Counted from the stretch's first letter, positions 3,134 to 64,000 are shown. The stretch: 64,000 bases of DNA from Haloarcula sp. DT43 (GCF_037078405.1 NZ_JAYMGZ010000001.1:1054001-1118000), one strand, 5' to 3'. A program made the numbers and translations. The notes: a model not told the origin generated them from the letters alone.

Positions 3134-3234
3134 CGGCTGTTCGCTGTGGACCCACCGCGGTTTCGACGCCACGGGCGGAGACACGGCCGCACCTGCCGAA
3201 CTGGCGCGGTCGCTGTCGTGACCCTGCCGAACAA

Positions 3235-3251
3235 TTATTACCTCTCGGTAA
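3235..3251 (+). promoter_or_regulatory. Promoter and palindrome before the Bat-like regulator
   Basis: An AT-rich TTATTA element at 3235-3240 lies about 38 bases before the ATG of the regulator gene. It overlaps a perfect inverted repeat, TTACC-TCTC-GGTAA, at 3238-3251. A palindrome sitting on or just after the TATA element is a typical place for an archaeal operator. The binding protein is unknown; autoregulation is possible but only inferred. Confidence 0.4.
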
Positions 3252-3276
3252 AGTGGTTGAACAGCACACTAGGGTG

Positions 3277-6018
3277 ATGATTGGGAACGACCTCGACGAC
3301 ATCGCGTTCGCGGGAGGGGGCCACGCCGACGCTACCGGTCGTGAGTTCGAAGTCGTGTATCTCGACACCGACCCGGCGGCGCGACAGCGGGTACGCACGG
3401 CACTGTCGGACCACAGCGCCGACGCGACGGTGACGACCGTGGCGACGACGACGGCCGCGCTGGAGGCGGTCGCGTCGACGGAGGTGGCCTGTCTCGCCCT
3501 CGACCCGGCCGGCCTGGACGATATCCCGGCCGCGCTGGTGTCGAACGACCGCTATCCCGTCGTCGTCTACACCGACGGCGACGACGCTGTCGTCGACGAC
3601 GCGGCGACTGTCGTCAAGAAACAGCGTGGCGAACAGTCGACGTTTCTCGCGGAGAAGGTCGTCAGCGTCGTGTCGGCGTCGGCCGACAGGACCGAGTCCG
3701 CGCTGCGGGAGTCGCTCTCGGGCATCGAATCGCGTGCCGGAGCGGACGAAATCGCCGTCCTGCTGGGGTCCGACGGTGAGGTGCGCTGGTCGAACGCGGC
3801 GGTGTCGGCCTTCGTCGCCGGCATGGACGACACTCGCCGGGTCGACCGTCTCTACGACGCCATGGCCACGGCAGTGCCTGACACGCCCTGTGGCCGCCGG
3901 CAGGTACAGCGGCTCCGGGACGCCCCGACGGAGCCGGTCACCGTCAGGCTCCCCGGCGACGACCACGACCAGTACCTCCTCCGGCACGGGTACGAACTGC
4001 CCGACGCCGCGGGCGGGCTCACGCTCGTCCTGCTCCGGGACGTCACCGAGACCGCCCGGCGTGACGCTCGGACGGCGCTGCTGGACCTCCTCGTCGACCA
4101 GGCACAGGACGGGCTCTACACGCTGGACGAACGCGGCGTCATCGACTTCTGTAACGAGTCGTTCGCGGCGACGCTGGGATACGACCCGGCCGAACTGCGC
4201 GGCGAACACGCCTCGGCGGTCCTCGTCCCGGGGGAGCTCTCGAAGGGGCAGGCGACCGTCGAACGGCTGCTGGAGTCGCCCGCCGAAACGAGTACGACCG
4301 TCGACCTGACGTTCCGCCGGAAGGACGGCACCGAGCGGGAGCTGTCTATCAACTACACGCTGATTCACGACGACGTCGGCAACTACGACGGGCTCGTCGG
4401 CGTCGCCCGGGACGTCACGGAGCGAAAGCACCGCGAGCGGGAGTACCAGGAACTGACCGAGCGGCTGCACTTCGCGCTCGAAGGCGCGGAGCTCGGCGTC
4501 TGGGACTGGAACCCCAAGACCAACGAGGTTACCTTCGACGAGCGCTGGACCGGGATGCTCGGCTACACCACCGACGAACTGGAGCCGCGGTACGAGACGT
4601 GGGCGGACCTCGTCCATCCGGACGACATCGACAGGGCGGAACAGGCCCTCAAGGACCTGAAGACCGGCGAAACCGAGCTGTACCAGTGCGAGTTCCGGAT
4701 GCGGACGAAAGACGGGGACTGGCGGTGGATTCGGGACATCGGGAAGGTGTTCGAGCGGACCGACGACGGCGAGGCGGTCCGTGCGGTCGGAATCCACCAG
4801 GACATCACCGAGGAGCGGCGACGCCAGAACGAGGTCGAACGACAGCGCGACGAACTGGTGACCCTCGACCGGGTCAACGTCCTGATTCAGGACCTCATCC
4901 ACGCGCTCGGGACGACAGCGTCCCGGGACGAAATCGCGGAGACGGTGTGTGAGCGCATCGTCGACTCCGAGCTCTGGAGCCTGGCCTGGATCGGCGAGCG
5001 GACCGGAGCCAGCGACGGCCTCGTCCCGGAGACGGTCGCCGGGGCCGACGACCGCGTCGACGTCGCCACTGACTGGGCGGACCCGGGACCCGGCGAAACG
5101 GCGCTCCGAACGGGGACGCCACAGACGGCGACGGCCGAGAGCGGGGCTGCCGCGTCCTCCGGCGACGCCACGCCGGCCGCGGACGGGGCCGAGTCTGTCG
5201 CGGCTGTCCCCCTGGTTCACGGCGACGTCGTCCACGGCATCCTCTGTGTCTGCGCTGCCGAGCCGGACGCGTTCACCAGCCGTGTCGTCGAGAGCTTCGC
5301 CGTCCTCGGCGAGATGATTGGCTTCGCGTTCACGGCCGTCCAGAACCGGCGGCTGCTCACCCGCGACAGGGTCCTCGAACTGACCTTCGAGTCCCGGAAC
5401 CCCGAGACGCCCCTCGTCTCGGTGTCGAACGCGTACAACTGCCGGGTCGAGGTCGTCGAGTCGGTCGATATCGGGTCGAACCACCTCCTGTACCTCTCCG
5501 TGGACGGTGGGCCGGCCGCCGCAGTCGCGGAGCGACTCGGCTCGCGCGCGGCGGTCGTCGACTCGCGGGTCGTCCGAGCGGACGACGACGGTGGCACCAT
5601 CGAACTGCGGGTCCCGGAAACCATTCAGTCGCTCCTGCTGGATGTCGGTGCCTGTCGCCGGACAGTCGTCGCCGACGGCGGGACGCTCTCGATAACCATC
5701 GAGGCCCCGCCGGACGCCGACTCGCGGACGATACGGGAGACGCTCACCACGCTGGTGCCGGACCTCACGCTGACGGCAAAGCGGGAGTGCGAGCGGGCCC
5801 GCGACGCGGTCGCCGCCGACACGGACCCGAGCGAGAACCTGACGGACCGCCAGCAGGAGGTGCTCCGGACGGCGTTTCTGACGGGCTACTACGCCTGGCC
5901 TCGGGACACCGACGCGGAGCAACTCGCGGAGGCGCTCGGCATCGCGTCGCCGACGCTCCACCAGCACCTCCGACGGGCACAGCGGAACCTCGTCGAGGCC
6001 GTCTTCGATTTCCAGTAG
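3277..6018 (+). CDS. Bat-like sensor-regulator (receiver-like, PAS, GAF, BAT, HTH_10)
   Basis: A 913-residue protein starting MIGNDLDD. An upstream in-frame extension is ignored because it crosses the promoter. Domains in order: a degenerate receiver-like fold (about 24-135), a weak PAS (about 150-265), two clear PAS domains (about 270-390 and 400-515, each ending in a DVTERK or DITEERR-type junction), GAF (about 540-690), the bacterio-opsin activator domain (about 690-845), and a C-terminal HTH_10 (about 855-913, SENLTDRQQEVLRTAF...TLHQHLRRA). Bat of Halobacterium activates the bop gene and has PAS-GAF-BAT-HTH architecture. The halorhodopsin gene lies 1.5 kb downstream with a Bat-type upstream site, so that gene is a plausible target. 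Other HTH_10 family members regulate unrelated genes, so orthology to Bat is not proven. Confidence 0.82.
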   Translation: MIGNDLDDIAFAGGGHADATGREFEVVYLDTDPAARQRVRTALSDHSADATVTTVATTTAALEAVASTEVACLALDPAGLDDIPAALVSNDRYPVVVYTDGDDAVVDDAATVVKKQRGEQSTFLAEKVVSVVSASADRTESALRESLSGIESRAGADEIAVLLGSDGEVRWSNAAVSAFVAGMDDTRRVDRLYDAMATAVPDTPCGRRQVQRLRDAPTEPVTVRLPGDDHDQYLLRHGYELPDAAGGLTLVLLRDVTETARRDARTALLDLLVDQAQDGLYTLDERGVIDFCNESFAATLGYDPAELRGEHASAVLVPGELSKGQATVERLLESPAETSTTVDLTFRRKDGTERELSINYTLIHDDVGNYDGLVGVARDVTERKHREREYQELTERLHFALEGAELGVWDWNPKTNEVTFDERWTGMLGYTTDELEPRYETWADLVHPDDIDRAEQALKDLKTGETELYQCEFRMRTKDGDWRWIRDIGKVFERTDDGEAVRAVGIHQDITEERRRQNEVERQRDELVTLDRVNVLIQDLIHALGTTASRDEIAETVCERIVDSELWSLAWIGERTGASDGLVPETVAGADDRVDVATDWADPGPGETALRTGTPQTATAESGAAASSGDATPAADGAESVAAVPLVHGDVVHGILCVCAAEPDAFTSRVVESFAVLGEMIGFAFTAVQNRRLLTRDRVLELTFESRNPETPLVSVSNAYNCRVEVVESVDIGSNHLLYLSVDGGPAAAVAERLGSRAAVVDSRVVRADDDGGTIELRVPETIQSLLLDVGACRRTVVADGGTLSITIEAPPDADSRTIRETLTTLVPDLTLTAKRECERARDAVAADTDPSENLTDRQQEVLRTAFLTGYYAWPRDTDAEQLAEALGIASPTLHQHLRRAQRNLVEAVFDFQ

Positions 6019-6123
6019 GGCACCGACGTGCCGGCCCGAGCCGGCGGCCGGCGTTTCGGGGACGCCTAGCCACCCTAGGTACAGCGTTGATGTCCTTTGC
6101 CGCGGTTAATTCTGTTCCCACCA

Positions 6124-6531
6124 ATGAGCAATCAAGGGAATGGCGGGCCGCGGAGCGACCGGTGGTGTGGGATGACGCCGGCGGACAGGACGCTGTCCAC
6201 GGCGGATGTCGACGACGTGTTCGAGGTGCTGTCGGACTGGCGACGGCGCGCCGTCTGTCACTACTTCGTGACTGGTGACCGGACAGCCGCCGACGTCGAG
6301 GCGCTCGCGACGGTGCTCTCCGACCGGGGGGACGCGGGCACGGTCGGGGCGTCGGACACGTCGCCGTCGACTATCCGGACACAGCTCCGAGAGGAGCACC
6401 TCCCGGTGCTGCACCGAATCGGTGTCATCGACTACGACGAGCGAAGCGGCGCAGTCAAATACTGGGGATCGCCCACCGTCGAAAAGTGGCTCGACCACGC
6501 ACGGGCGGTCACGCGGCGAACCGACTTCTGA
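6124..6531 (+). CDS. Small winged-helix-type regulator (DUF7344-like)
   Basis: A 135-residue protein. The core DDVFEVLSDWRRRAVCHYFV...LREEHLPVLHRIGVIDYDERSGAVKYWGSP matches the haloarchaeal small HTH family, which begins with an 'LSxxRRR.vL' helix and ends with a wing before a YW-type strand. The ATG at 6124 is preferred; MTPADRTLST at 6172 is an alternative that would remove a non-conserved tail. Location between a Bat-like regulator and the halorhodopsin suggests a role in the same light or energy response, but this is inference only. Confidence 0.65.
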   Translation: MSNQGNGGPRSDRWCGMTPADRTLSTADVDDVFEVLSDWRRRAVCHYFVTGDRTAADVEALATVLSDRGDAGTVGASDTSPSTIRTQLREEHLPVLHRIGVIDYDERSGAVKYWGSPTVEKWLDHARAVTRRTDF

Positions 6532-6601
6532 CAGACGACGGGCGCGGCTGGGGGGACGGCCGGAGCGGTACCCCTTTCTCGCGGCGGTCCAAACCCGGCA
6601 C

Positions 6602-7360
6602 ATGGACCTCCCACCGGTCGGGCTCGGCACGATGGGCATCGAGGACGCGGCCGTCGTTCGGACGGCCATCGACTGTGGCTACCGGCACCTCGACACCGCG
6701 CAGATATACGACAACGAGGCCGTCGTGGGCGCGGGCATCGCCGCTGCTGCCGCCGACCGCGACGACCTGACCGTCGCGACGAAGCTCTGGACCGACGCGC
6801 TCGGAGCGACCGCCGTCCGCCCGGCGACGGAAACGAGCCTCGACCGGCTCGGCCTCGACGCCGTCGACCTCCTGTACGTCCACCGTCCCCGCGGCGACTA
6901 CGACCCCGAGACGACGCTGCCCGCTGTCGAGGCCGTCCGCGAGGCGGGGTTGACCGACCACGTCGGCCTCTCGAACTTCGAGCCCGAACAGCTCGCGGCG
7001 GCGCGCGAGCACGTCGACGTCGCCGCCCACCAGGTCGAGTTCCACCCGCTGTACTGGCGCGAGTCGCTGCTCGCCGACGCCCGTGAGCACGGCTACCCGC
7101 TGGTCGCGTACTCGCCGCTGGCCGGCGGGGGCGTGTTCGAGGACCCGACTATCGTTGACATCGCCGACCGGCACGACACGTCGCCGGCCGCCGTCAGCAT
7201 CGCCTGGGTGACGAGCTACGACAACGTCGTCACGATTCCGAAGGCGTCCTCGCAATCCCATCTCAGCGCCAACCTCGCCGCCGCCGACCTCCAGTTGACC
7301 GACGCCGAGAGAGCCCGCATCGAGGCCATCGAGCGCGAAGAAGAACTGTTCCCGGAGTGA
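6602..7360 (+). CDS. Aldo/keto reductase
   Basis: A 252-residue protein, slightly short for the family (about 270-280). It shows the GLGTM N-terminus, the catalytic DTAQIYDNEAVVG region (Asp and Tyr of the tetrad), a TKLW strand carrying the Lys, VDLLYVHRP with the His, and the cofactor-binding SNFEPEQL, YSPLAGG and TIPKASS segments. It is expected to reduce carbonyls with NADPH in the cytoplasm; the substrate is unknown. The ATG at 6602 is chosen because the longer frame upstream overlaps the preceding gene and is not family-like. Confidence 0.85.
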   Translation: MDLPPVGLGTMGIEDAAVVRTAIDCGYRHLDTAQIYDNEAVVGAGIAAAAADRDDLTVATKLWTDALGATAVRPATETSLDRLGLDAVDLLYVHRPRGDYDPETTLPAVEAVREAGLTDHVGLSNFEPEQLAAAREHVDVAAHQVEFHPLYWRESLLADAREHGYPLVAYSPLAGGGVFEDPTIVDIADRHDTSPAAVSIAWVTSYDNVVTIPKASSQSHLSANLAAADLQLTDAERARIEAIEREEELFPE

Positions 7361-7454
7361 CCGCTCCGCCGCTCCCGGCCAGTCCGGGATGCCGGCTTCG
7401 TACAGCGGTTTCACGCCGTCCGGGCCGGGCGCACCTTCTGACCCGGGTAGTGAT

Positions 7455-7484
7455 ACCGATACCGTTTGGCTACGCGGCTTTACG
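7455..7484 (+). promoter_or_regulatory. Halorhodopsin promoter: Bat-type UAS plus TATA element
   Basis: The sequence ACCGATACCGTTTGG at 7455-7469 matches, with exact spacing (ACC, seven bases, TT, one base, GG), the upstream activating sequence I recall for the Halobacterium bop regulon. It is followed almost at once by a TATA-like CTTTACG at 7478-7484, which is about 27-30 bases before the ATG at 7508. Placement of a UAS directly against the TATA box is as in the bop promoter. The consensus is quoted from memory and the match is by eye. Confidence 0.5.
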
Positions 7485-7507
7485 TGCCCTGTCCGTAGTC
7501 GCCGTAC

Positions 7508-8338
7508 ATGACAGCTGCCAGTCACACTGCAACGACAGTACTCCAGGCCTCACAGTCCGAGGTGTTTCAGGAGATACAGTCGAGTGTCCTCCTGAACTCG
7601 TCGCTGTGGGTGAACATCGCCCTCGCCGGGGTCGCGGTGCTGCTGTTCGTGTTCATGGGCCGAGGGGTCGAGTCCTCCCGCGCGAAACTCATCTGGGTCG
7701 CAACCCTACTGGTCCCGCTGGTCTCGATTTCGAGCTATGCTGGCCTGGCCTCTGGGCTGACGGTCGGCGTCCTCGAAATGCCGCCGGGCCACGCCCTCGC
7801 CGGCCAGGAGGTCCTCTCCCCGTGGGGTCGGTACCTGACCTGGACGTTCTCGACGCCGATGATACTCCTGGCGCTGGGGTTGCTCGCCGACGCCGACATC
7901 GCGTCGCTGTTTACCGCCATCACGATGGACGTCGGGATGTGCGTGACCGGGCTCGCGGCCGCGCTGATTACCTCTTCGCACCTGCTGCGCTGGGTGTTCT
8001 ACGGCATCAGCTGTGCGTTCTTCCTGGTGGTGCTGTACATCCTGCTCGTCGAGTGGCCGGCCGACGCACAGGCCGCGGCGACGGCCGAGATATTCGGGAC
8101 GCTCAAGCTCCTGACCGTCGTGCTGTGGCTCGGCTACCCGATTCTGTGGGCGCTAGGCTCGGAGGGGGTGGCCCTCCTGAGCGTCGGCGTGACCTCGTGG
8201 GGTTACTCCGGGCTGGACATCCTCGCCAAGTACGTCTTCGCGTTCCTGCTCCTGCGCTGGGTGGCCGCCAACGAAGACGCCGTCTCGAACGCCGGTGCGA
8301 GCGTCGGCTCCAGCGGCGCTGTGCCGTCGGACGACTGA
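7508..8338 (+). CDS. hop: Halorhodopsin, light-driven inward chloride pump
   Basis: A 276-residue seven-helix microbial rhodopsin. Helix C reads RYLTWTFSTPMILLALG: the three residues that set ion type are Thr111, Ser115 and Ala122 (Asp85, Thr89 and Asp96 in bacteriorhodopsin), the TSA signature of halorhodopsin. Arg108 is conserved. Helix G carries Asp237 and the retinal Schiff-base Lys241 in LDILAKYVF. The N-terminus has a roughly 30-residue extension. The TSA motif excludes a proton pump. The protein would import chloride using light, aiding osmotic balance and membrane potential. It is preceded by a Bat-type promoter and lies in a block with a Bat-like regulator. Confidence 0.93.
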   Translation: MTAASHTATTVLQASQSEVFQEIQSSVLLNSSLWVNIALAGVAVLLFVFMGRGVESSRAKLIWVATLLVPLVSISSYAGLASGLTVGVLEMPPGHALAGQEVLSPWGRYLTWTFSTPMILLALGLLADADIASLFTAITMDVGMCVTGLAAALITSSHLLRWVFYGISCAFFLVVLYILLVEWPADAQAAATAEIFGTLKLLTVVLWLGYPILWALGSEGVALLSVGVTSWGYSGLDILAKYVFAFLLLRWVAANEDAVSNAGASVGSSGAVPSDD

Positions 8339-8527: not shown

Positions 8528-8716
8528 ATGCCCTCCCCTTTCGAAAACCCGATTGTTCGCTACGGCATCCCACTGGTCAGCGCCACGGTCATCGCGGCTA
8601 TTGCGTTCCTCTTGCTCGATGGAACGATACGATATGTCGCCCTTGGCATCGCCATGCTCGAAGTTGTAGTCACCCCACAGATTCTGAAACAGGCGGCGGC
8701 GAACGAACAGAACTAG
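8528..8716 (+). CDS. Small two-helix membrane protein
   Basis: A 62-residue protein, MPSPFENPIVRYGIPLVSAT..., with two hydrophobic helices (about residues 13-30 and 34-52) and a polar C-terminus. The ATG at 8528 is about 28 bases after an AATATGG TATA-like element. Upstream in-frame starts would give a non-hydrophobic, unlikely extension. It follows the halorhodopsin gene on the same strand after about 190 bases, so it probably has its own promoter. Function unknown. Confidence 0.55.
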   Translation: MPSPFENPIVRYGIPLVSATVIAAIAFLLLDGTIRYVALGIAMLEVVVTPQILKQAAANEQN

Positions 8717-59223: not shown

Positions 59224-60687
59224 ATGAGCTGGAAGGACACCGCCGAACCACTGCTTGTCCGGATGCCCGCCGTCCAGCGACCGGACGGTCACGTCCCGTT
59301 CAAGCGCAAGCTCACCTGGACAGGGGGCGTGCTCCTGCTGTATTTCTTCCTGACGAACGTGAAACTGTTCGGGCTGGACATCGACGCCAGCCAGCAGGTG
59401 TTCGGGCGCTTCTCCTCGATTCTGGCCTCCGGCCAGGGGAGCATCATGCAGCTAGGTATCGGTCCCATCGTCACGGCGTCCATCGTGTTACAGCTCCTCG
59501 GTGGTGCGGACCTGCTCGGCCTGAACACCCAAGACGACCCGCGTGACCAGATCCTCTATCAGGGGCTCCAGAAGCTGCTGGTGCTCGTGATGATCTGTCT
59601 GACCGGGCTTCCGATGGTGTTCGCCGGCGGCTTCCTCCCGGCTGACACGGCCGTCGCGAGATCCCTGGGTATCGGTACGACCGGCGTCCAGTGGCTCATC
59701 TTCGGCCAGATGTTCGTCGGCGGTGTCCTCATCCTGTTCATGGACGAGGTCATCTCCAAGTGGGGCGTCGGCTCCGGTATCGGGCTGTTCATCGTCGCCG
59801 GCGTGAGCCAGCGGCTCATCGGGGGCGTCCTGACCACGCCGTTTATCGGCAACAGCGAAGGCATCATCTACACCTGGTACCTGTTCATCACCGGCCAGCG
59901 GGGCACCGGGCCAGTGCTGGCCGCTGACGGCCTTCAGACCGTGTTGCTCCAGGGCGAACTCTTGGGCCTGGTGACGACCATCCTCATCTTCTCGGTGGTC
60001 GTCTACGCCGAGTCCGTCCGCGTCGAGATTCCGCTGTCGAACGCCCGCGTGAAAGGTGCGCGTGGCCGGTTCCCGGTCAAGCTCATCTACGCGAGCGTCC
60101 TGCCGATGATTCTCGTCCGGGCGCTGCAGGCGAATATCCAGTTCCTGGGCCGGATTCTGAACGCCCAGCTGGGCTCGATGCCCGCGGTCCTTGGGACCTA
60201 CTCCAACGGCCAGCCCACCGGCGGGCTGTTCTACTTCCTCGCCCCCATCCAGAGCCGTGGCGACTGGATGTGGTGGCTCGAAGGGACCGCTCAACCGGTC
60301 TGGCAGATTCTGACCCGCGTCGGTATCGACCTGTTCATCATGCTGGTCGGCGGCGCTATCTTCGCCGTGTTCTGGGTCGAGACCACCGACATGGGCCCGG
60401 AAGCGACGGCCAAGCAGATTCACAACTCCGGGATGCAGATTCCCGGCTTCCGACAGAACGTCGGCGTCATCGAGAAGGTTCTCGAGCGATACATCCCGCA
60501 GGTGACTGTCATCGGCGGCGCGCTCGTTGGACTGCTCGCCGTGATGGCCAACATGCTGGGCACCATCGGCGGCGTCTCCGGTACCGGACTGCTGCTGACG
60601 GTCTCCATCACGTACAAGCTGTACGAGGAGATCGCCGAAGAGCAGCTCATGGAGATGCATCCGATGATGCGCCAGATGTTCGGATAG
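59224..60687 (+). CDS. secY: Preprotein translocase subunit SecY
   Basis: A 487-residue ten-helix translocon channel. The first helix is preceded by VPFKRKLTWTGGVLLLYFFLT; the plug and helix 2b region are around ASGQGSIMQLGIGPIVTASIVLQLLGGADLLGL, with the NTQDDPRDQILYQGLQK loop. Cytosolic loops 6/7 (SVRVEIPLSNARVKGARGRFPVKLIYASVLPMILVRALQAN) and 8/9 (IHNSGMQIPGFRQNVGVIEKVLERYIPQ) contact the ribosome. It moves proteins across or into the cell membrane. It is the last gene of the ribosomal operon in this window; adk, which often follows, is absent. Confidence 0.97.
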   Translation: MSWKDTAEPLLVRMPAVQRPDGHVPFKRKLTWTGGVLLLYFFLTNVKLFGLDIDASQQVFGRFSSILASGQGSIMQLGIGPIVTASIVLQLLGGADLLGLNTQDDPRDQILYQGLQKLLVLVMICLTGLPMVFAGGFLPADTAVARSLGIGTTGVQWLIFGQMFVGGVLILFMDEVISKWGVGSGIGLFIVAGVSQRLIGGVLTTPFIGNSEGIIYTWYLFITGQRGTGPVLAADGLQTVLLQGELLGLVTTILIFSVVVYAESVRVEIPLSNARVKGARGRFPVKLIYASVLPMILVRALQANIQFLGRILNAQLGSMPAVLGTYSNGQPTGGLFYFLAPIQSRGDWMWWLEGTAQPVWQILTRVGIDLFIMLVGGAIFAVFWVETTDMGPEATAKQIHNSGMQIPGFRQNVGVIEKVLERYIPQVTVIGGALVGLLAVMANMLGTIGGVSGTGLLLTVSITYKLYEEIAEEQLMEMHPMMRQMFG

Positions 60688-61517
60688 AACAGCCGAATAT
60701 CTACACTTCTTTCTAGATAGGACCGCTAAACCGCTGCTTCACCCTCACTCTTTATTGCTTGGGTGTAGTTGACGTGAACAACAGTGCCACCGCTTCGAAT
60801 GGCGGGCAACCTCTTTTTACCGAGCACGGCCTGAAATTGTACTGGGTCGCAGTGAACTCCTATTTAGGGTTTTGAGGGGGACTCGGGAGAGATGGAGAAA
60901 CACTCTGCGGATAGTAATAGGACGTTCAGCCGACACTGTTTAGTTCTGAATGTATCCAATTGGTGTTTCTGAATTAACAGTTGACTTGGACACTGTGGCT
61001 GTAGTGTTGCATGAGGCGTTGCAAACACTGGTTGACGTTAGGTGGACTACTCTGATAAAACAAATGAAAGCGGTTGATTCGGCTGAAAACAATTTAGAAG
61101 TGTGTCTCAATATGGCTTCAAGTTTAATTATCAGGCACCCTTCAATTATTCACGAGGAGGAGGAGGAACTCTGTATGGATTGATTGTGCTCTTCCGCGAC
61201 CCGTTACGGGTACACTGTTTGGATGAATTTCGGTTTCGATTGGATACCGAGATCCACTGTTACTGTGAAAGACGCAGACTGAGTCCTGTGAACGCTGATT
61301 ATGTCGACATCAACCAATACTTCGTTTAAGTATATTTGGCTATATAAGGCGGCTTTCGTATCAACTCCTGTTTATTGTTTTTAATCAACTGCAACCATCC
61401 AACTGTCCTACCTGGTTATTTTGAGCTTTAAACAGGTCTGACCCATTCTATCACACTTTCATAGTGGTTATCCAATGCGACCGCCACGTACTTATCAGTC
61501 CGGACAAACCGAAGCAC
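60688..61517. other. AT-rich 830-base region without a convincing gene
   Basis: GC content drops abruptly after secY. Thymine-rich runs at about 60700-60712 and CTCTTTTTACC at about 60810-60820 may end the ribosomal operon transcript. Short open frames at 60950-61183 (77 residues) and 61102-61329 (75 residues) lack haloarchaeal codon preference and recognisable domains; they may be remnants. A textbook TATATAA lies at 61341-61347 and a TTTAAAC at 61427-61433. Confidence 0.5.
61341..61347 (+). promoter_or_regulatory. Strong TATA box without a nearby start codon
   Basis: TATATAA inside GGCTATATAAGGCGG would start transcription near 61370, about 150 bases before the glycosyltransferase ATG. It could drive that gene with a long leader, or a small RNA. 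A weaker CTTATC element about 27 bases before the ATG at 61518 could give a leaderless message instead. Confidence 0.45.
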
Positions 61518-62600
61518 ATGCGCATCCTTCGTGTCGCGCAGAAACTCTATCCGGAGGTTCCCGGTGGCGGACCGTATCACGTACATGCCATGTCGCGGGA
61601 CCAGGCCGCACTAGGGCATGATGTGACTGTTTTGACTGTTTATGACAACCAATCACTTCCCCGACGCGAACGACGAGATGGGTACACCGTGGTTCGTCAA
61701 CCGAGGACGGCGTCCATGCTTGGTAATGACCTCTCGATCGGAATAGGTAGATTCCTGTGGACTGCCGACGAATACGATATTATCCACGCTCACTCACATT
61801 TGTATGCTTCGACGAACTTGGCTGCGGTGAAACGGCGATTTGATGACATTCCGCTCGCAATAACGAATCATGGGCTGTACAGCCAGACTGCCCCAGAATG
61901 GACGTTCGACCTGTATCTCAGAACCGCTGGTCGCTGGACGTTTAACCAAGCAGACGCGATTTTCTGCTATACAGATGAGGACCGCAGTCGCGTCCAGAAC
62001 TTCGGGGTAAAGTCCCCTATCAAGGTAATCGCGAACGGTGTTGATACGGACCGATTCACGCCCACAGGGCCGACAAGCGACCGGATCAACCACGATGGGC
62101 CAGTCGTGTTGTTTGTGGGGAGGCTGGTTGAGGGAAAACGGCCCCAAGATGCGGTGAAAGCAGTGAAACAGCTTCCGGATGGACTGAACGCACAACTGTA
62201 CCTGGTCGGTGATGGCCCGATGCGGCCGGAGCTTGTTCAAATGGCGTCGGAGTCGGTGGAGTTTCTCGGACAGGTCTCGTACGACGAGATGCCAAGCATA
62301 TATCGCTCTGGCGACGCAATTGTGCTGCCGAGTCGGGCCGAAGGATTACCCCGAACCGTCCTGGAGGCGTTCGCATCGGGTGTTCCAGTTGTATCTAGCC
62401 ATTTAGAACACACCGCATCGATTGTCGAGCAGGCCGGTGAAACCGTAGATATCGGTGATGTCGAGGGATACCGAGAAGCGCTGAAACGCGTGCTCAATAC
62501 CTCAAATTCGGGGGCAGCCGGTCGAGAAATCGCCGCTGATGGGTTCCGTTGGGAAACCACCGTCAAACAAACTACCAGAGCACTTCGGGAACTACTGTAA
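61518..62600 (+). CDS. Glycosyltransferase, family 4 (GT-B)
   Basis: A 360-residue retaining-type glycosyltransferase from the ATG at 61518 (MRILRVAQKLYPEVPGGGPYHVHAMSRDQAALGHDV). The acceptor-binding domain has the PGGG loop and DIIHAHSHLYAS. The sugar-nucleotide domain has VIANGVDTDRF, VVLFVGRLVEGKRPQDAVKAV and the E(X7)E-type PSRAEGLPRTVLEAFASGVPVV. It would add a sugar to a glycan or lipid carrier at the inner membrane face; donor unknown. A GTG at 61464 is in frame but adds a non-conserved tail. Base composition is much lower in GC than the upstream genes. Its 3' end overlaps the convergent next gene by nine bases. Confidence 0.9.
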   Translation: MRILRVAQKLYPEVPGGGPYHVHAMSRDQAALGHDVTVLTVYDNQSLPRRERRDGYTVVRQPRTASMLGNDLSIGIGRFLWTADEYDIIHAHSHLYASTNLAAVKRRFDDIPLAITNHGLYSQTAPEWTFDLYLRTAGRWTFNQADAIFCYTDEDRSRVQNFGVKSPIKVIANGVDTDRFTPTGPTSDRINHDGPVVLFVGRLVEGKRPQDAVKAVKQLPDGLNAQLYLVGDGPMRPELVQMASESVEFLGQVSYDEMPSIYRSGDAIVLPSRAEGLPRTVLEAFASGVPVVSSHLEHTASIVEQAGETVDIGDVEGYREALKRVLNTSNSGAAGREIAADGFRWETTVKQTTRALRELL

Positions 62601-64000
62601 ATAACCGAGTTCCTCTAGCCGGGACTTCGTACTAGCGCTCATTGAGACATCGGATACGTTTTCGGCATGTTTGAACGAATCGAGCCACGTGTCGAGCTGC
62701 TCGTCCAACTCAACGACTTTTTTAGACTCTCTGTCAGCAATATCGTTTGTTTCATCGGAGTCTAACTGGATCTCGTAGAGTTCCCGTGACCCATCAGATC
62801 CACGAATGTATTTATATCGATCAGTGCGAATCGTACGGAGGGTTCGATCATATATATGGACCTCTGGGGGGAGTTCGCCGACGCGCTTTTCGAGTGCGGC
62901 CATCGATGGTTGGGGAGCAAGGTATTCGGCGACCGCGTGCTCACGCGTCGCCTCGGAATCGGGGTGAAACGAGATTCCCTGAAATTGTTTCCGTGCATCA
63001 AGCGCATCGATATCGAGTACGTCAAGCACGGTAGGAGGGATATCGAGGAGTTGGACGAGGTCGTGGATATCATTGCCCCCGAACGGACCGCCGTGAACAA
63101 TTAGTGGGACATTCAGGAGTGTTTCGTAGAGCGCGTACTGGTGGTCCATCAGATCATGTTCGCCAATATTCTCTCCATGGTCGCTTGTGACAATAAAAAG
63201 TGTATCCTCCCATTTCCCAGCTGTTTTGAACATATCGATAAGGGATTCGATCTTCTCGAAGAGATATGCGATTTCAGCCCTGTATAACGCCCGAAGGATG
63301 ACGAAATCTTCCTCTGACATTTCGACGTCGCCGGCAATATATCTCCACGCATCTTGTGAAACGTCCATCGCTTCGTTGAAGCTTATGCCCTCGGGAAGCT
63401 GTTCCTTTGCGTGTTGCTTGGCAGGGCGATATTCGAGATGGGGTTCGATGTAGTTGATGAAGAGGAAGAACGGCCGTGTGTCGTCTCGTGTCTTGAGCCA
63501 GTCATGAACCCATTTGTTGGTTTGGGCAGCGCCATCGTCCTCATTCTTTCGTAGGAACTGACCGTAGATAGCGTTTGTCAGGTTCGTCACCGGGTTTCCA
63601 TTGAACAATGCTTCGGTAGCTTTTTTAAGTTTGTCGACTCCCTCTTCTTGCCGAGCGATTTTTCCGAGGTCTGTGTTGGACTGGACATACTGCCAAGTCT
63701 TGTAGAACGTTTCGAATCCTCTTTCGAAGCCGAACTCTCCGCTTATCCAGGTGTTGTTGGAGACAGCGACTGTTTCGTAGCCTTGGTTTTGGAGAATTTC
63801 GGAAATTGTGGTAAGATCATCGCTGAGGTGTTTATGACCCGCATGAGCGCCGTGCTTTGATGGTGTCGTCCCAGTGAAAAGCGACGCATGAGATGGTAAC
63901 GTCCACGGTGCTGAGGAGATGGCTCTTCTGTAGGTTGTGGCTGTCGCAAGAGTACTTTCCGACTCTTCTGCAGCCGATTTTGCGTCTAACAGCCCGTAGC
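62592..64000 (-). CDS. Sulfatase/alkaline-phosphatase-superfamily enzyme, 5' end cut by window
   Basis: The frame runs through the right edge, so at least 469 residues with the true start outside. Near the edge it reads SSAPWTLPSHASLFTGTTPSKHGAHAGHK, the active-site region of sulfatase-like proteins. Later come FFLFINYIEPHLEYRP, then IVTSDHGENIGEHDLMDHQ (metal ligands Asp and His) and the C-terminal RTIRTDRYKYIRGSDGSRELYEIQLDSDETND. Where a sulfatase has Cys/Ser-x-Pro-x-Arg, this has Thr-Leu-Pro-Ser-His. It may therefore use Thr as nucleophile and be a phosphohydrolase or transferase. It probably modifies surface glycans, as suggested by the neighbouring glycosyltransferase. Confidence 0.85.
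   Translation of the reverse strand, partial: YGLLDAKSAAEESESTLATATTYRRAISSAPWTLPSHASLFTGTTPSKHGAHAGHKHLSDDLTTISEILQNQGYETVAVSNNTWISGEFGFERGFETFYKTWQYVQSNTDLGKIARQEEGVDKLKKATEALFNGNPVTNLTNAIYGQFLRKNEDDGAAQTNKWVHDWLKTRDDTRPFFLFINYIEPHLEYRPAKQHAKEQLPEGISFNEAMDVSQDAWRYIAGDVEMSEEDFVILRALYRAEIAYLFEKIESLIDMFKTAGKWEDTLFIVTSDHGENIGEHDLMDHQYALYETLLNVPLIVHGGPFGGNDIHDLVQLLDIPPTVLDVLDIDALDARKQFQGISFHPDSEATREHAVAEYLAPQPSMAALEKRVGELPPEVHIYDRTLRTIRTDRYKYIRGSDGSRELYEIQLDSDETNDIADRESKKVVELDEQLDTWLDSFKHAENVSDVSMSASTKSRLEELGYLQ

Follow-up and report, generated by a model that had tools for sequence, protein, structure and literature searches.

The bop regulon of Halobacterium is the best-studied archaeal regulon, and the targets known so far supply bacteriorhodopsin and retinal. 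Halobacterium Bat acts through an upstream site to activate bop, brp, and crtB1 under low oxygen and light (PMC1885257, PMC1502140, PMC1447603), and Brz, a small zinc-finger protein, is needed for bop and crtB1 (PMC2253796). For the halorhodopsin gene hop, a 2007 survey reported no linkage pattern outside N. pharaonis (PMC1885257). We did not find hop as a regulon member in the literature searched, a search with most subscription journals outside its scope. The site and the bop/Bat regulon are already known.

We analyzed a stretch of 64,000 nucleotides (the window; G000:C1:1054001-1118000) from a 3.75-Mb genome of the Haloarcula group. The original prediction described a PAS-PAS-GAF-BAT-HTH_10 protein, a small protein, an aldo/keto reductase, and a TSA-type halorhodopsin in one stretch, and all four were found by Pfam and opsin matches. 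Start codons were assigned by homology, and some are uncertain. The features are as follows.

3227-3240, + strand: CCGAACAATTATTA, conserved BRE/TATA-like element of P0001 (weak match to the upstream-site matrix)
3277-6018, + strand: P0001, Bat-like regulator of 913 aa with an ATG start (Pfam, tree, adjacency to hop)
6124-6531, + strand: P0003, small DUF7344 protein of 135 aa (Pfam; conserved with P0001 and P0004)
6602-7360, + strand: P0004, aldo/keto reductase of 252 aa (Pfam)
7455-7469, + strand: Bat-type upstream site of hop, ACCGATACCGTTTGG (pattern, conservation, matrix)
7478-7484, + strand: TATA-like element of hop, CTTTACG (TTA conserved in the Haloarcula promoters)
7508-8338, + strand: hop, halorhodopsin (Bac_rhodopsin) of 276 aa with the TSA motif (Pfam, opsin matches)
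8528-8716, + strand: small hydrophobic protein of 62 aa with two probable membrane helices (conserved in Haloarcula genomes, downstream of hop)

The hop product belongs to the Bac_rhodopsin family and carries T, S, and A at the three pump positions, in RYLTWTFSTPMILLAL. It matched solved halorhodopsins at about 350 bits (351 to 5ahy) compared to about 110 bits for bacteriorhodopsins, and it is 86 to 88% identical to the halorhodopsins of Haloarcula vallismortis, japonica, argentinensis, and others. Light-driven chloride transport would be expected from its family.

In an alignment of seven Haloarcula genomes, P0001, the DUF7344 gene, the reductase gene, and hop are each preceded by their own conserved promoter-like element. 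Therefore, hop is probably transcribed alone, as its own transcription unit. P0001, the DUF7344 gene, and the reductase gene form a conserved three-gene module that is also found without an adjacent hop (L278, L279, L280, L281, and L285). Upstream of the DUF7344 gene, an inverted repeat, CCTAG-N4-CCTAGG at 6065-6079, is kept in all seven aligned genomes (CCTAG...YCTAGG in relatives) and looks like the gene's own operator. The 62-aa protein downstream of hop is 80 to 86% identical across Haloarcula and has no Pfam family. We considered it as the opsin-associated protein Bap and rejected this, since profile comparison gave no relation and the likeness is one of size and topology only. At the far end of the window (60001-64000), G+C falls from about 0.66 to 0.53 past a SecY-like gene (59224-60687), and glycosyltransferase-like and sulfatase-like genes (named by eye) make a variable cell-surface locus probable there.

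The original prediction placed an ACC-N7-TT-N-GG site directly before the hop TATA element, and its coordinates proved exact: ACCGATACCGTTTGG is at 7455-7469, with CTTTACG (7478-7484) and the ATG (7508) downstream of it. The TATA-like element lies about 27 bp ahead of the ATG, a leaderless-type spacing, and an imperfect 14-bp dyad, CCGATACCGTTTGG, occupies 7456-7469. Two ATACCG words had been described as overlapping and as allowing two registers of binding. The words abut (7453-7458 and 7459-7464) with no overlap, and the second is replaced by ATACAG, ATACGG, or ATACGA in sister species. Because the sister-species sites differ there, the second word is, on this comparison, a local state and not a conserved second binding register, and we rejected binding in two registers.

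A genome scan for ACC-N7-TT-N-GG had been proposed as a check. The bare pattern occurs 6 times in the window against 6.1 expected and 224 times in the 3.75-Mb genome against 185 for the reversed control. Being at chance-level frequency, it is no evidence by itself, in agreement with a published count in which as many as 108 Halobacterium genes carry the motif (PMC1502140). The weight rests on position and conservation.

Within the genus, conservation of the element is strong. Among 14 Haloarcula hop promoters, 17 of the 18 columns over the element are invariant, compared to 11 of the remaining 82 columns of the last 100, and those 11 lie mostly in the TATA region. Sister species retain a recognizable hop site, as in GTACCGATACAGTTTGG (L219), GTACCGATACGGTTCGG (L221), and GTACCGATACGATTCGG (L214), and the extension TTTGG-S-TAYGC is common to bop and most hop sites in Haloarcula.

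To follow the site across haloarchaea, we used a palindromic 14-column matrix trained on bop promoters only, with this genus left out (46 promoters; effective number, 28). Its consensus, CC-N-AAC-TA-GTT-N-GG, presumably agrees with the mutagenized Halobacterium bop site. The test set comprised 74 nonredundant hop promoters from outside Haloarcula sensu stricto, all held out of training. The best matrix match started at -60 to -50, the bop position, in 33 of these against 7 expected (binomial p of 3e-15, a value that overstates the count of independent events because phylogenetic dependence remains among hop promoters). Zones scoring at least 6 bits were found in 38% of hop promoters versus 0.3% of random zones, and those scoring at least 8 bits in 32% versus 0.1%. 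Such sites include CCCAACTAGTTGGG (L194), CCAAACCAGTTTGG (L226), CCTAACTGGTTTGT in Halobiforma (L027), and CCAACCCTGTTGGG in Halomicroarcula (L018). The hop site of the window itself scored 4.5 bits with this matrix, a score reached by about 1% of random positional zones and about 4 to 7% of other genes.

High scores were rare elsewhere. Among the loci fetched, with 292 gene starts, a score of at least 8 bits was reached by six zones, four of them at bop or hop. The other two precede a gamma-glutamyltransferase-like gene (named from reading the sequence) and P0001. We rejected the P0001 promoter as a regulon member, as its match coincides with the BRE/TATA region and is probably core promoter only.

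The distribution of the site across hop genes is uneven. About half or more of the nonredundant hop promoters have no recognizable site. Halobacterium hop is among these (L168 to L170), including that of G161, whose bop product is 100% identical to that of H. salinarum; two of these Halobacterium genomes have bop, and one has bat and brp beside bop (L168, L169, and L126). The hop site is present in three other genomes, G176, G259, and G185, for which no bop match was obtained at 1e-50. The prediction had taken the Bat logic to be fitted to a chloride pump here. A Bat-type site on hop was borne out, while the local scope was not, as hop genes of many families have the site. Since bop and hop are homologs, their common site may go back to an ancestor instead of being a new adaptation to the chloride pump.

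We then compared hop with the other phototrophy genes of the same genome, where hop is one of three opsin genes, the others being a DTD-type bop and an SRII-like gene. The bop site, ACCTAATATTTTGGG at -57 from the ATG on C2, matches in full. The crtB operon comprises crtB, a lycopene-cyclase-like gene, and the genome's only Brp/Blh gene (brp), and its promoter has CCCGAAGCAGTTTGG followed by CTTATCC, with one mismatch to the pattern; all 14 Haloarcula genomes examined have the same 14-mer there, CCGAAGCAGTTTGG. No site was found upstream of the SRII-like gene, and the matrix gave nothing at 7 bits or more upstream of the genome's own bat. The dyad of hop lies just upstream of its TATA-like element in a genome in which bop and the crtB-brp operon also have the site, so one sequence element is common to retinal synthesis and to both the proton and the chloride pump, three transcription units in all. 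The Bat-type site at crtB is also kept in G018, G008, and G015 (L158, L163, and L167), which gave no opsin match at the cutoff used; carotenoid synthesis may therefore be governed by the site whether or not rhodopsins are present.

The gene beside hop had been taken for a Bat-like regulator by its domains, and P0001 does have PAS, PAS, GAF, BAT, and HTH_10. However, the genome encodes 18 BAT-domain proteins, and best match, tree, and synteny rule out P0001 as Bat. With Halobacterium Bat from the bat-brp-bop locus of G166 (L126) as the query, the best match was a 526-aa protein (G000:C1:725964-727544) at 195 bits versus 137 bits for P0001. This protein groups with Halobacterium Bat (tree support of 0.98, or 0.70 with more paralogs), and its gene lies directly ahead of crtB with brp nearby. 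P0001 falls in a separate paralogous clade (support of 1.0) and lacks the linkage to crtB, brp, or bop. We also considered whether G010 and G023 use P0001 for a missing Bat and rejected this, since each has a diverged sister of the Bat clade (L250). The gene is in a single frame in G010 (L282) and in two frames in G023 (L286:4932-6913), possibly a frameshift or pseudogene.

Taken together, we believe it likely that hop is a member of the bop/Bat regulon, with the Bat ortholog most likely acting in trans. In our model, a Bat-family HTH_10 activator would bind the imperfect dyad just upstream of the hop TATA and recruit transcription. The crtB promoter and the bop site (C2, -57) would answer to the same activator, so both pumps and the retinal supply would rise together. 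The most likely activator would be the ortholog at G000:C1:725964-727544, and P0001, which shares the HQHL helix core, may add to or substitute for it at hop. By analogy with Halobacterium Bat, the signal would be low oxygen and light, and Bat binding and activation at hop are likewise expected by analogy. Brz may act at the hop site too.

The genus-level data raise the question of whether P0001, not Bat, regulates hop through the same type of site, giving the chloride pump its own sensor input. In 23 of the 28 genus genomes with hop, P0001 precedes it by 0.7 to 1.5 kb on the same strand, and of the 18 BAT-domain proteins in this genome, Bat and P0001 alone carry HQHL in the recognition helix. 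Moreover, G011 has a degraded hop site and a strong bop site, and this genome is without a P0001 relative. However, the trio of P0001, DUF7344, and reductase genes is intact in four genomes without hop (G008, G015, G018, and G021) and in G020, with hop at a distance of 0.8 Mb. The promoters of P0001 and hop are separate, and for most site-bearing hop genes outside the genus, the family searched includes no close relative of P0001. We consider control by P0001 unlikely, and because the trio persists without hop or with hop elsewhere, we rank Bat in trans first and P0001 second.

A different reading is that the site is a relic of an ancestral opsin promoter, or a part of the core promoter (BRE region), with no activator function at hop. 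The homology of bop and hop, the equal distance of their sites from the ATG, and the missing site at Halobacterium hop would all fit, and a promoter inherited from their common ancestor could have been retained with no present control by Bat. Yet the site is invariant in Haloarcula while its flanks have diverged, it is also found at crtB, a nonopsin gene, and few other genes carry it; its place is also upstream of that of the BRE. This makes a relic rather improbable. Finally, a loose pattern might happen to precede hop by chance, as the chance-level frequency of the bare pattern and the low stand-alone score of the window site would allow. The positional clustering in held-out hop promoters and the invariance within Haloarcula both speak against this, and the comparative data already disfavor a chance origin, which we regard as very improbable.

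About one-third of the other haloarchaea examined have hop with a bop-type site, and judging from these promoters, one regulator probably turns both pumps on. Whether this joint control is old is a more tentative matter. Joint Bat-type control of both pumps may be an old, widespread haloarchaeal state, found even in some genomes that have hop and no detected bop (G176, G259, and G185), with loss of the hop site in H. salinarum, the species behind the textbook regulon, and we hold this to be conceivable, at somewhat less than even confidence. Should many lineages have hop as a target, the regulon would be a general phototrophy program coupling ion balance to proton pumping, and the picture from the model species would be incomplete.

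Compared to the halorhodopsins of H. salinarum and N. pharaonis, the window protein is ordinary, with the TSA motif and a near-full-length match, and the promoter is what differs. Like Bat, P0001 has GAF-BAT-HTH_10 and the HQHL core of the recognition helix; it differs from Bat in its two PAS domains, its long N-terminal part, and its separate clade, the ortholog being another gene. The Halobacterium Bat/UAS regulon (bop, brp, bat, and crtB1; PMC1447603, PMC1502140, and PMC2253796) has the same dyad at the same distance from the start as found here. As in that regulon, bop and crtB-brp carry the site in this genome, and the Bat ortholog lies beside crtB and brp. In contrast to an H. salinarum-type genome (G161, with hop lacking the site), the regulon here appears to include hop.
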